From: Hyphomicrobium sp.
Lineage (GTDB): Bacteria; Pseudomonadota; Alphaproteobacteria; Rhizobiales; Hyphomicrobiaceae
DNA length: 64,000 nucleotides
NCBI GenBank assembly: GCA_016793445.1
Contig: JAEUME010000006.1
Span: forward strand, 62,001 to 126,000
Reading direction: 5' to 3'
In this document: positions 45,373 to 52,957 of the stretch, piece after piece
Layout: each line of letters starts with the position of its first letter
Numbering within the stretch: the first letter of the stretch is position 1
Translations under genes and position numbers: made by a program
Notes under the pieces: generated by a model
What the model saw: the letters and a program-made list of their open reading frames with translations, nothing else
What the model was told of the DNA's origin: nothing
Databases searched by the model: none

Positions 45373-45750
45373 TTAGTGACCCTGCATGCCGCCCATGCCA
45401 CCCATTCCGCCCATTCCTTGCTGGCCGCCCATGCCCTGCATGCCTTGCATTCCCGACATGCCGCCCATTCCGCCCATACCGGACATGCCGCCCATTCCGC
45501 CCATACCGGACATGCCACCCATGCCGCCCATACCGGACATGCCACCCATACCGGACATGCCGCCCATACCGGACATGCCGCCCATGCCGCCCATTCCTTG
45601 CTGGCCACCCATGCCCTGCATGCCTTGCATTCCCGACATTCCACCCATTCCGCCCATACCCTGCTGCTGGGCTTCAGCGATGGCGGCGCCCGAGGCCATC
45701 AGGCCCACGGTGAGAAGCGCCAAACCTGCGTTGCGAATCTTCCTCGACAT
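45373..45750 (-). CDS. Secreted Met/Gly-repeat protein
   Basis: A 125-residue exported protein. Signal peptide residues 1-27 (GLALLTVGLMASGAAIAEA), then about 95 residues built of Met-containing triplets (GGM, SGM, QGM) with Met at nearly every third position and a terminal His. Two copies of the block GGMSGMQGMQGMGGQQGMGG bracket the array. Regularly spaced methionines suggest Cu(I) or heme-associated binding, or a flexible filamentous role; neither is shown. GGAG lies seven bases upstream of ATG 45750. It sits directly upstream of the pentaheme cytochrome gene. Confidence 0.8.
   Translation of the reverse strand: MSRKIRNAGLALLTVGLMASGAAIAEAQQQGMGGMGGMSGMQGMQGMGGQQGMGGMGGMSGMGGMSGMGGMSGMGGMGGMSGMGGMGGMSGMGGMGGMSGMQGMQGMGGQQGMGGMGGMGGMQGH
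45376..45669 (-). repeat. Low-complexity tandem repeats encoding Met-Gly triplets
   Basis: Short 9-, 18- and 27-base units (for example GGCATGTCCGGTATGGGC on the coding strand) repeat imperfectly. Synonymous changes in Gly codons between copies indicate that the amino acid pattern is kept while the DNA drifts. Confidence 0.85.
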
Positions 45751-45844
45751 CGTTCGTCTCCTCGTTGATTTGTGCATCGCTTCGCCGTTGCGGCGGGGCC
45801 TGCCTCGATGCGCTCAGAAAACCGCAGCCCACGGTGTTCGGATC

Positions 45845-48964: not shown

Positions 48965-49846
48965 ATGTTGCCGGATATCCCCATTTATGTTGTTAATCTT
49001 GATCGCAGTCCCGAACGATTGCAATCGATCGCGGCGCAGCTCGCGCGGATCGGAATATCCTTCAAGCGCATTGCCGGCGTTGATGGCAAAACGAGCGATC
49101 TTGAGAGAGAATTGTTCAGCGGCCGTGCTTCGCTGTCGGATGTTTCCGGTCAATCTTTGACGCGAGAAGAAATTGGATGTCACTTGAGTCATCTTAAGGC
49201 GTTCGACGAGATTCTGGCGTCGGGCGTTTCCTCGGCGATTATTCTCGAAGACGACTTGATCATCTCGCCACGCTTCCAATCCGCCGCCCTGGCTCTTGCA
49301 GCGCATTTTTCAGGAGAGCCCGTCGTCATCAAGCTGGAACCGTGGAATAAGCCTCGCCTTGCGTACATGGCCCATCGATGCGGCGATTTCGATCTTATTT
49401 TCACAAACCATCAGCTTACGCAAACCGGTGCATACTTCATTACGGCAGAGGCAATTCGCTTGTTGCGCACGCCGCTTTCGCGCATCGGCCGCCCATACGA
49501 CGATGCTCTCTACGCAGCAGGCGAAAACGGCGTTGGCGTTTTTTCGCTTTCTCCAGCCATAGCGCAGCAGACGGCCTCGTTTCAGAGCTTGATAGAAACG
49601 GGGCGCCGGAGACTTCGAGATCGCGATCGCGGTTACGGCCTGACGCGCGAGATCGTTCGCCCCATCAGGCAATGCGCTCAGTTTCTGAGCCTGCTTCGCT
49701 TGATCAAAATCAAGTCTGGGTGGCAGGGTTTAGTCAAGCTGCGCCGGTACCGTCCTGCGGGGCCTGGCCGTCCGCCCCAATCGATGGGAGACTTTACGGG
49801 GGTCAGCTCTGTAGGCGATGTACGCACCTGGCGGGTTGCAAGATGA
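48965..49846 (+). CDS. Glycosyltransferase family 25 (LPS biosynthesis type)
   Basis: A 293-residue protein. It begins with DIPIYVVNLDRSPERLQSIA, has REEIGCHLSHLKAFDEIL and ILEDDLIIS (the DxD-like acidic motif), and TQTGAYFITAEAIRLL, all typical of GT25 enzymes that add galactose or similar sugars to lipooligosaccharide. ATG 48965 is used; a TTG at 48944 would add seven residues. The gene overlaps the next by four bases, giving a tight four-gene unit. Confidence 0.88.
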   Translation: MLPDIPIYVVNLDRSPERLQSIAAQLARIGISFKRIAGVDGKTSDLERELFSGRASLSDVSGQSLTREEIGCHLSHLKAFDEILASGVSSAIILEDDLIISPRFQSAALALAAHFSGEPVVIKLEPWNKPRLAYMAHRCGDFDLIFTNHQLTQTGAYFITAEAIRLLRTPLSRIGRPYDDALYAAGENGVGVFSLSPAIAQQTASFQSLIETGRRRLRDRDRGYGLTREIVRPIRQCAQFLSLLRLIKIKSGWQGLVKLRRYRPAGPGRPPQSMGDFTGVSSVGDVRTWRVAR

Positions 49847-50823
49847 CGATTGACACTTTTACCCCTGCGCTGCGCGCCGGCGTCGAAGAATTCTTATGTA
49901 ATTTTGCCGGCCAAAAAATCTTGTTTTACCCAAATCCGGGTAATGCTGGTGATTGCCTGATCGTGTCGGGCACGATGTCGGCTTTTGAGAGGGTCAACAT
50001 TGAAGCTGCCGTCATCGGCCAGGGTGCCGATGTGTCCGGACGAACGGTTTTCATCGGCGGCGGCGGCAATTTCATCGATCTTTATACGGACGTCAGGCAG
50101 ATGATCGAGGCCTGCCACGCCGGGGCTGAGCGGTTCGTGCTGCTGCCGCATACGATACGCGGCAACGAAAAGCTGATCGCGTCTTTGGACCAGCGTGCGA
50201 CGCTCTGGTGCCGTGACACGCCTTCTCTTCAGCATGCGCGCAGCCTGAATCCGGCGCTCGATTGCAGGTCCGGACACGACATGGCCTTCCACTGCGACGC
50301 GTTTCAATTCCTGAACGATCCGATCATCATTCGAAAGGCCTCTTGGAAGCTCGATGCCGATCTCGCGAGACACGGCACGTCTCTTCTTGAGCTTTCCAAG
50401 CTGGATTGCGTGCGCTTCATGCGGCGCGACCGTGAGGCCTTGGATCTGAATTGCCAAAGCGATCTCGACGTTTCGACGGCCTTCGGAGAGGCCTCAGACG
50501 GCGCCACGGCGCGCGTAATATCGTGGTGTCTGCTCAAGACGGTATCAAGTGCGCGCAGGATCGTCACCGACCGGCTGCATGTCGCTATTGCGGCGGCGCT
50601 TCTCGAGCGGCCCTGCAAGCTTCTGGACAATGCCTACAACAAGAATCGCTCGGTCTACGAGCACAGTTTGTCTGGTTTTCCCAACCTGAGCTTTAGCCGG
50701 GTCCTTGCGCTCCCACTGCCGGATCAACCCCCGCCGCGTCAGAGATCCCTCCTTGGAAGCCTCCGCCGCAATGCGCGAAAATTTGTGCGCAAACATTTCT
50801 CAGGCGAGGAAGTTGCGCAATGA
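49843..50823 (+). CDS. Polysaccharide pyruvyl transferase family protein
   Basis: A 326-residue cytoplasmic enzyme from ATG 49843, which overlaps the GT25 stop; the frame is open further upstream but only as an overlap with GT25. Motifs are NPGNAGDCLIVSGT, FIGGGGNFIDLY, VLLPHTIRGN, LWCRDTPSLQHAR and IVTDRLHVAIAAALLERPC, as in ExoV/CsaB-like proteins. They transfer pyruvate from phosphoenolpyruvate to a sugar as a ketal, or act as related glycosyltransferases. Confidence 0.88.
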   Translation: MTIDTFTPALRAGVEEFLCNFAGQKILFYPNPGNAGDCLIVSGTMSAFERVNIEAAVIGQGADVSGRTVFIGGGGNFIDLYTDVRQMIEACHAGAERFVLLPHTIRGNEKLIASLDQRATLWCRDTPSLQHARSLNPALDCRSGHDMAFHCDAFQFLNDPIIIRKASWKLDADLARHGTSLLELSKLDCVRFMRRDREALDLNCQSDLDVSTAFGEASDGATARVISWCLLKTVSSARRIVTDRLHVAIAAALLERPCKLLDNAYNKNRSVYEHSLSGFPNLSFSRVLALPLPDQPPPRQRSLLGSLRRNARKFVRKHFSGEEVAQ

Positions 50824-51812
50824 TGATGCAAAGGCGCGCGTCGGCACGCGAGTCTGCCCTCCGGCCTTGGATCGAGCGGGATGCGGCGCACAATCGGCAT
50901 CTCGTCGTTACCGTTGATCTTGGCCGGATCCGAAGCAACGTCGAAGCAATCAGCCAGTCCTGCCGCGTTCCGGTCATGCCGGTCGTCAAGGCGGATGCCT
51001 ATGGTCTTGGCATGCTCACCATCTGCGATTGCATCTGCGATCTCGCGTCTGCTTTTTGCGTCTTTCAGCTCGAAGAAGCGGTCCGTAAAAATCTTGCAGC
51101 CCGCACAGGGCGGCGTGTGCTTGCTCTTGGTCCGCCATCGTCACTCGATCCTGAGGTCTATCTCACTCATCGGGTAACGCCCTCCGTGGCCGATGTGGAA
51201 TCAGCCAGGCTGTTACGCAAGGCAAGACCGGCACTGTGCGTGGATACAGGAATGCAACGGTTCTCATGTCCTGCGGACCAGATAGAGCGCGCGCTTAGGG
51301 CGGGCGAATGCACGGAGATCTTTGCTCACGGAACCAGGAAGGAACATGCCGCGCGCGTCGCCGAAGTCGCACATGGCCGCGACGCCTTCCGGCATGTCGC
51401 GGCTTCTGCACTGCTTTTGGAACCCGATTCGCATCTCGACGCCGTCCGTCCGGGACTTGCGATGTATGAAGGAGCCGTTGAGGCAGCGATCCCGCTCCAC
51501 GAAGTGCACCGAAGTGCCGGCCCTGCGGGATACTCTGAATTCGAAGGGCCTTACCATGGCGTAATACTGGCTGGATACGCGCAGGGATTGCGTAAGGGGC
51601 CGTGCCTGATCAACGGGCGGCTCAGCCGGATCGTGGAAGTCGGAATGCAGTCGGCCTATGTGTCGACTGCGGCCCAGGACCGGCCCGGCGATAAGGTCAT
51701 GCTTCTCGGCCACGAACTCACCGCCAGCACCGTCGCCGCAGCTTGGGGTACGAGTCCGCATGAGGTCTTGATATCCTTGACCCGCGAAGCGTCGCGCGTC
51801 TATCGATATTAG
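50820..51812 (+). CDS. Alanine-racemase-like PLP enzyme
   Basis: A 330-residue fold-type III PLP protein. The PLP lysine is Lys57 in VVKADAYGLG; VRPGLAMYEG corresponds to the phosphate/pyridine-binding strand, and the C-terminal beta domain follows. The motif holding the second catalytic base reads GYAQG where alanine racemases have GYxDG; the Tyr remains. It is shorter than Alr (about 360) and is embedded in a glycan cluster with ATGA overlap, so it probably makes a D-amino acid for glycan decoration rather than for peptidoglycan. Confidence 0.8.
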   Translation: MMMQRRASARESALRPWIERDAAHNRHLVVTVDLGRIRSNVEAISQSCRVPVMPVVKADAYGLGMLTICDCICDLASAFCVFQLEEAVRKNLAARTGRRVLALGPPSSLDPEVYLTHRVTPSVADVESARLLRKARPALCVDTGMQRFSCPADQIERALRAGECTEIFAHGTRKEHAARVAEVAHGRDAFRHVAASALLLEPDSHLDAVRPGLAMYEGAVEAAIPLHEVHRSAGPAGYSEFEGPYHGVILAGYAQGLRKGPCLINGRLSRIVEVGMQSAYVSTAAQDRPGDKVMLLGHELTASTVAAAWGTSPHEVLISLTREASRVYRY

Positions 51813-51829
51813 CTTGCAGGATTGTTTGC

Positions 51830-52957
51830 ATGGCGCGGGTTGAAGTACGTGTGTCGGAAGACGGGCTTCACCGAGAAGTCTTGAGCCCCGATCTTTGTAG
51901 TCCGCTGACATATCGCATCGTTCCGCGCGGCGGCGCCGAACCTCCAAAATTCAATACCCACGATTTCGCGCTGATAGCCCTGCTTCCGATAGCCATGCAT
52001 GAGGGTCAATCGCTGGAGGTGGATTTTCCGGCCGACTCTGTGCTGCTCGACGGACTCGATCACTACCAGGAGATCTGGCAATCCTGGCGGCCGGATATAT
52101 TCCGGCATCGTGTCACCATCCGTACGGCCGGGGAGTACCTGAAGACATCGCATCAACACTACCCGCCACGGGCCGTGGCAGCCTTCTCGTCCGGCGTCGA
52201 TAGCACGTTCACGCTCGCGCGCCACACCCACGACCGGGCTGGCCGTGCGCGACGCGATATCCGCACCGCGGTTCTGATACATGGTTTCGATATGCCTCTC
52301 GATGCCGAAGACGGCTTTGAAACGTTGTCGTCCAGCGCGCTGGCGATCTGCCAGCAACTGGGCATCGATCTGGTTACGGTGGCGACCAATTGGCGGCAAC
52401 TCATTGCCAACTGGGAAATGACGTTCGGCGCGGGGCTGGCTTCGGTTCTGCATCAGTTCGATGCCGCCCACGACCTTGCGCTGATCGCGACCGAGGAAAG
52501 CTACCAGAACTGTTTTCCGGTTTGGGGCAACAGCTTTTGGAGCGATCGCTTCTTTTCTGCGTCGAGCTTCGCAATAGAGTCGGATGGCGGCGCCTACGAC
52601 CGTATCCAGCGCGCCGAGCTTGTTAGTCAATATCCCAGGCTTGTGCCGCACTTGCGCGTTTGCTGGGCGGGACCGCGAACGGGTGAAAACTGCGGGACAT
52701 GTCCCAAGTGCACGCTGACCAAGCTGAACCTGCTTGCGGCAGGCGCACCCCAACCCTGGCCATTCCCTCAGCCGTTGACGCCGCAGCTCGTGCGCGACAT
52801 GCAGATTAAGACCCGCTGGCAGATCCAATTCCTGGAACTCATCTTATCGCGCCTTCAGAAGCGCGCCGACGTTGATCCTGACATTCTCTTGGCTGTTCGC
52901 GAACGTATCGAAAGGCAACGGTCGCCATCGCGGCGCTTCCTGGCCTTTTGGAAGTAA
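51830..52957 (+). CDS. QueC-like PP-loop ATP pyrophosphatase
   Basis: A 375-residue protein. Residues 120-125 (SSGVDS) form the PP-loop that binds ATP pyrophosphate. A Cys-x9-Cys-x2-Cys-x2-Cys set (Cys278, 288, 291, 294; NCGTCPKC) matches the zinc site of QueC (7-cyano-7-deazaguanine synthase). The 110-residue N-terminal region is additional to QueC and beta-rich. Such enzymes adenylate a carboxylate and form an amide, nitrile or thioamide. It lies 17 bases after the racemase-like gene. No other queuosine genes are nearby, so queuosine synthesis is unlikely. Confidence 0.78.
   Translation: MARVEVRVSEDGLHREVLSPDLCSPLTYRIVPRGGAEPPKFNTHDFALIALLPIAMHEGQSLEVDFPADSVLLDGLDHYQEIWQSWRPDIFRHRVTIRTAGEYLKTSHQHYPPRAVAAFSSGVDSTFTLARHTHDRAGRARRDIRTAVLIHGFDMPLDAEDGFETLSSSALAICQQLGIDLVTVATNWRQLIANWEMTFGAGLASVLHQFDAAHDLALIATEESYQNCFPVWGNSFWSDRFFSASSFAIESDGGAYDRIQRAELVSQYPRLVPHLRVCWAGPRTGENCGTCPKCTLTKLNLLAAGAPQPWPFPQPLTPQLVRDMQIKTRWQIQFLELILSRLQKRADVDPDILLAVRERIERQRSPSRRFLAFWK

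Follow-up and report, generated by a model that had tools for sequence, protein, structure and literature searches.

Four genes on the forward strand of the window (the whole 64,000-nucleotide stretch of Hyphomicrobium DNA analysed here) form a compact cassette encoding a glycosyltransferase (GT25), a pyruvyltransferase-family protein (PyrT), a racemase-family protein (Rac), and a PP-loop protein (PPL), as listed in Table 1. ATGA overlaps join GT25 to PyrT and PyrT to Rac, while 17 bp separate Rac from PPL. An earlier note on this DNA had reported a four-gene set with these coordinates, overlaps and gap, in agreement with the open reading frames and Pfam matches found here, and had read it as a glycan gene set, which is supported. 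The genome carrying the cassette is 3.98 Mb in size. Because other genomes carry 50–62% identical copies of these genes in an identical arrangement, the set is not a product of chance. A promoter and terminator scan of the cassette gave nothing above shuffles, an RNA family scan matched two tRNAs and nothing else, and a search for gene remnants in the spacers flanking the cassette recognised no known gene among the compared loci. No tie of the cassette to lipopolysaccharide in particular was found.

Table 1. Genes of the cassette and sequence features of PPL; positions are those of the window, or residue numbers for PPL features.
Feature	Description	Length	Position	Strand	Basis
GT25	glycosyltransferase family 25 (PF01755)	293 aa	48965..49846	+	Pfam Glyco_transf_25 8.7e-24
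PyrT	polysaccharide pyruvyl transferase family (PF04230)	326 aa	49843..50823	+	PS_pyruv_trans 1.4e-11
Rac	alanine-racemase-family PLP protein	330 aa	50820..51812	+	Ala_racemase_N 3.7e-25, Ala_racemase_C 1.7e-9
PPL	PP-loop protein of QueC/QatC-like family	375 aa	51830..52957	+	sequence motifs, predicted fold
PPL features	N-terminal domain		1-110
	PP-loop SSGVDS		120-125
	HGFD		151-154
	Cys set		C278/C288/C291/C294

Judged by its divergence, GT25 is an interchangeable member of the cassette: its counterparts in three other loci (L002, L004, and L142) are 61–73% alike mutually but only 26–32% identical to the window GT25, and that of L005 is 38% identical to it. Elsewhere in the window, the reverse strand (45373-45777) encodes a short Met/Gly-rich repeat protein (MGGMSGMGG...), which adjoins genes at 40–45 kb identified by eye as encoding molybdopterin oxidoreductase, Fe-S, and multihaem cytochrome proteins.

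Sequence and predicted fold of the PP-loop protein

No family in Pfam, NCBIfam, or PADLOC matched PPL above cut-off, and comparison of its sequence or profile with the PDB returned only non-significant matches of PP-loop size. The SSGVDS segment fits the SGGxDS PP-loop, with serine instead of glycine as its second residue, and S120, G122, and D124 are invariant in an alignment of 19 relatives. Across 22 relatives, the invariant positions include W86, G122, D124, R258, and the four cysteines, with S120, H151, G152, and D154 conserved in at least 90%. The cysteines (C278-x9-C288-xx-C291-xx-C294), present in all of the 22, are predicted to form a zinc site. This site had been described as QueC-type, which holds for the set of four cysteines but not for their spacing, the first interval being one residue longer than in the published QueC pattern, C-x8-C-xx-C-xx-C (PMC13329287).

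An AlphaFold2 model of PPL was obtained from seven homologues (mean pLDDT 83.7, pTM 0.84), with values below 50 only at residues 224–235 and the C terminus. Its best structural match over the whole length was QatC (Foldseek 4.9e-6), and VIA-align gave Z scores of 15.5 for QatC, 13.0 for QueC (PDB 3bl5), and 12.3 for Cap9, with other PP-loop proteins at 10.8 and less; the nitrile synthetase ArtA scored 9.8. The QatC alignment (9y01_B against model residues 1–362) covers 295 residues at an rmsd of 4.8 and 13% identity. The window PPL has no PF06508 (QueC) match at E≤0.1, and 3 of 22 relatives match that profile weakly (best E 0.0025); a genuine queC is found elsewhere in the genome (C5:24226, 193 bits). 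The missing profile match, the separate true queC, and the order of structural matches rule out QueC proper. The genes neighbouring PPL are glycan genes, with no queuosine genes beside it; a true QueC beside queuosine genes, which by the earlier note would have refuted its reading, is thus not what is seen. By its motifs and modelled fold, PPL is a QueC/QatC-like protein distinct from QueC, and it probably takes part in glycan synthesis by adenylating a substrate to activate it. A phage origin of PPL was considered and dropped, with no match among 50,697 phage records.

Several PPL paralogues occupy other surroundings. A solitary paralogue lies at one common chromosomal place in four Hyphomicrobium genomes (L046:9516-10688, L047:9666-10919, L048:9956-11125, and L055:9785-10954), between a peptidase-like gene and a conserved membrane-protein gene and without glycan neighbours; in L047 the peptidase-like gene is partly absent or separated. 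Another paralogue in four Hyphomicrobium genomes (L138:3723-7246, L139:3859-6955, L140:3933-6962, and L141:4087-7119) is flanked by proteins that resemble, by eye, a lipid acyltransferase and a cytochrome P450 (neither has a Pfam match in L138); L138 also encodes a phosphopantetheine carrier protein there, and this set possibly belongs to a lipid or natural-product amide pathway. A 1.9-Mb alphaproteobacterial genome (G307:C5; L135–L137) carries four paralogues, two of them in tandem, with no pyruvyltransferase recognised alongside.

Pairing of the pyruvyltransferase with the PP-loop protein

PyrT, the sole PF04230 match in its genome, scores 45.2 bits against a gathering cut-off of 25.3. PEP-site residues have been shown in CsaB (R148, R306/H308, and K328) and modelled in Pvg1p (PMC10435577). 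The candidate PEP-binding residues of PyrT are R244-L-H246, K267, and R124, placed by alignment with neighbouring PyrTs; R124 is likened to CsaB R148 by motif only. The spacing of the RLH...K pattern falls between those of CsaB and Pvg1p. The RLH motif is lost in the PyrTs of L042–L045 and L072.

In the samples of genomes covered by the survey, PyrT and PPL are neighbours in Hyphomicrobium, Shinella, Rhizobium, Azospirillum, Gemmobacter, and the cyanobacterial Gloeothece. Within the PPL clade of the window, pairs occur in L002, L003, L005, L006, and L007 as well as the window itself, and among more distant PPLs in L041, L042–L045, L050, L051, and L142, the PyrT of L044 scoring below the Pfam cut-off. 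On Azospirillum and Gloeothece plasmids, a gene annotated as "polysaccharide pyruvyl transferase family protein" lies directly upstream of a PPL homologue annotated as a hypothetical protein. The order in Gemmobacter is formyltransferase-PPL-GT25-PyrT-Mur ligase, one GT25 gene thus standing between PPL and PyrT; GT25 often accompanies the pair. Of the 24 PPL-family genes counted in 14 Hyphomicrobium genomes, 8 have a PF04230 gene no more than 3 kb away, against 0.09 expected; the corresponding Poisson probability (~1e-13) ignores shared ancestry, though orientations and PyrT subfamilies differ between the pairs. Genes outside the cassette are not common to the cassette loci, and the retention of gene order although the flanking sites differ argues for both functional linkage and mobility. 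PyrT is the constant partner of PPL, in an association wider and stronger than that between Rac and PPL.

Other neighbours recur as well: Mur ligase genes in five loci (L041, L044, L051, L072, and L142) and sugar-transfer ATP-grasp (ATPgrasp_ST) proteins adjoining the PPLs of L063 and L129. PPL homologues without PyrT are found in L039, L040, L046–L048, L052, L055–L057, and most of L123–L141, so a pyruvyl ketal cannot be the substrate of every family member and other substrates are needed. Two of the loci with Rac (L004 and L038) have the cassette without PyrT; no PyrT remnant was found in either cassette, and both genomes carry PF04230 genes elsewhere. On the Gloeothece plasmids (L070 and L071), the PyrT-PPL pair stands, at 9–18 kb, beside glycosyltransferases and large non-ribosomal peptide synthetases, with sulfotransferases in L071, surroundings that represent a possible glycopeptide or glycolipid cluster.

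The racemase-family protein and its loss from one locus

Rac matches both alanine racemase domains (PF01168, 89.4 bits; PF00842, 37.7 bits). Like Alr/DadX, it has kept the catalytic lysine and tyrosine, K57 (the PLP lysine) and Y253 aligning with the genome's own Alr and with Alr sequences from the PDB, and R147 and R210 are also kept in all four known copies. It differs from Alr/DadX in shortened loops and in several conserved active-site substitutions: in all four copies GYxDG is replaced by GY[AS][QH]G, SMD by GMQ, the C-terminal YE by HE, and the lysine before DTGM by cysteine. The window form, GYAQG at residues 252–256, had been picked out in the earlier note. The functional roles of these kept and altered positions are presumed here from general knowledge of Alr. 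Rac scores 90.1 bits on NCBIfam alr (TIGR00492; cut-off 168) and is at most about 29% identical to Alr proteins on plasmids. Housekeeping Alr is a separate gene in the same genome and already provides alanine racemization, so Rac probably does not serve plain alanine supply. The simplest reading is that Rac is a racemase with a changed substrate. That it is instead a degenerate or repurposed PLP protein (e.g., a PLP-dependent lyase or a regulator) would be compatible with every other reading of the cassette and accord with the motif changes in all four copies and the unreached alr cut-off; it is nevertheless improbable, given Lys57, Tyr253, Arg147, and Arg210 in all four and the alignment of the PLP-lysine and catalytic-tyrosine segments with the genome's Alr. 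The AlphaFold prediction for Rac, based on three sequences, was too poor for use (mean pLDDT 39.8).

Of 199 related genomes, 4 contain Rac, every one of them a Hyphomicrobium; a sample of 385 genomes from the class gave no further copy. In each of the four it lies directly upstream of PPL, the only setting in which it was seen, at four unrelated chromosomal sites. A neighbourhood search for the racemase/PP-loop pair, the check that the earlier note had proposed, thus finds the pair recurring. This placement, together with the occurrence of N-aminoacyl amino sugars in bacterial glycans, would suit a route in which Rac makes a D-amino acid, PPL activates the carboxylate of this amino acid and attaches the amino acid to an amino sugar, and PyrT works separately on a different residue of that glycan. 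Such a route is unlikely, however: many genomes that lack Rac have PPL next to PyrT, and an enzyme adenylating amino acids would have no need for so consistent a PyrT partner. A further argument against it comes from L003, which dropped Rac and kept PyrT and PPL.

L003 has intact PyrT and PPL genes separated by 198 bp, and this spacer contains a decayed 3' end of Rac that matches residues 312–344 of the L004 protein. With L004 Rac as query, none of 2000 dinucleotide shuffles reached the score of this remnant, at either the protein or the DNA level; weaker protein-level matches to the same spot come from the Rac of L002 (43 of 2000 shuffles) and that of L038 (167 of 2000). In the PPL tree, L003 and the four Rac-bearing loci form one supported group of five with unresolved inner order. 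Remnant and grouping together indicate that the ancestor most likely had Rac and that L003 lost it, and the retention of PyrT and PPL around the remnant marks Rac as a dispensable add-on. The earlier note's observations are confirmed, and of its interpretation the glycan setting and the recurring racemase/PP-loop pair stand; the racemase as the core does not, as the partner of PPL across phyla is PyrT and L003 lost Rac while keeping the other two.

A tentative glycan-amidation model and its relation to known systems

PyrT is of a family that makes a carboxylate, and the adjoining PPL is of a fold class that turns carboxylates into amides, which suggests consecutive steps. In the model proposed here, GT25 would extend the glycan, PyrT would use PEP to place a pyruvyl ketal, with its carboxylate free, on a sugar, and PPL would adenylate a carboxylate (in the simplest case the ketal's own) and join it to an amine, forming an amide; in this group of Hyphomicrobium, Rac would provide a D-amino acid to serve as amine donor. 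The product would be a surface glycan bearing a D-amino acid or amide. As a whole, from PyrT ketal to PPL amide with a D-configured donor from Rac where present, the model is put forward tentatively, and with it the view of the locus as a small mobile glycan-decoration cassette. Slightly more doubtful is a generalisation in which the QueC/QatC-derived family forms, with ketal pyruvyltransferases of Alphaproteobacteria and cyanobacteria, a general two-gene module for amide-capped pyruvyl groups, capped by D-amino acids in Hyphomicrobium.

In the literature searched, no report of amidated pyruvyl ketals on glycans was found, nor any published description of the PyrT-PPL pair or of the combination of PP-loop protein, pyruvyltransferase, and racemase; the earlier note likewise knew of no described pathway of this kind. 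If the model is true, it concerns a glycan modification for which no reported structure was found, and what is commonly regarded as an end group, the pyruvyl ketal, would serve as a handle for amide chemistry that takes away its negative charge. The presence or absence of Rac beside the same PyrT-PPL pair offers a natural comparison for what the racemase adds. Mechanism aside, the pairing with pyruvyltransferases across phyla offers a clue to the function of proteins at present annotated as hypothetical.

With the ketal pyruvyltransferases CsaB and Pvg1p, PyrT has in common the family (PF04230) and the candidate R-L-H ... K pattern of the PEP site. It differs from CsaB in scoring 12.5 bits on TIGR03609 (cut-off 213) and from both in its recurrent pairing with PPL; a PPL-like partner is unmentioned in the searched passages of a pyruvylation review (PMC6801904).

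PPL resembles the N-acetyl sugar amidotransferases (LpNASAT and WbpG), zinc-binding PP-loop enzymes of glycan loci (PMC10607449), and could by analogy convert a sugar N-acetyl to an acetamidino group. The superfamily, a zinc tetracysteine, and the glycan context would all fit this activity. It is nonetheless quite unlikely, because the amidotransferase tetracysteine is CxxC-Xn-[GN]xCxxC (PMC10607449), whereas PPL has Cx9CxxCxxC with a single cysteine at the first site, and because PPL has no NCBIfam amidotransferase match. LpNASAT was not among the matches listed for the structural search with the PPL model.

QatC of the Qat anti-phage system (PDB 9y01, 9y02) is predicted to share with PPL the full-length fold with its N-terminal extension, a PP-loop core like that of QueC, and zinc cysteines toward the C terminus, although the cysteine site is Cx9CGxCxKC in PPL and Cx19CGxCxxRR in QatC. 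As QatC is the closest fold to PPL, N-terminal extension included, PPL might be expected to place a small carboxylate on the N terminus of a partner protein, as Cap9 does and as proposed for QatC, the glycan genes being mere neighbours. This is very unlikely: neither qatA, qatB, or qatD, sought in the window and related PPL loci, nor CD-NTase genes were recognised beside any PPL examined, PADLOC gave no match, and the neighbours of PPL are repeatedly glycan enzymes. On the same neighbours and the absence of any PADLOC match to the cassette (0 matches), assignment to Qat or another defence system was rejected.

The amide-forming role tentatively assigned to PPL draws on QueC (PF06508), with which it shares the PP-loop core and, by prediction, the four-cysteine zinc site. 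PPL differs in carrying an extra N-terminal domain and in lacking the published QueC substrate motifs YxQxHxxE and YPDC, whose places in the alignment are taken by HGFDxPL and VCWAGP-type segments. Polysaccharide, glycosyl, and pyruvyl contexts all go unmentioned in a 2026 survey of PF06508 (PMC13329287). QueC uses ATP and ammonia to convert a carboxylate to an amide, and Cap9 links a carboxylate to the amine of a protein N terminus (PMC13329287, PMC12424860); the carboxylate-to-amide chemistry of QueC is the model for the reaction proposed for PPL. If true, the QueC fold, known from nucleobase synthesis and protein modification, would have a third field of action in glycan chemistry.
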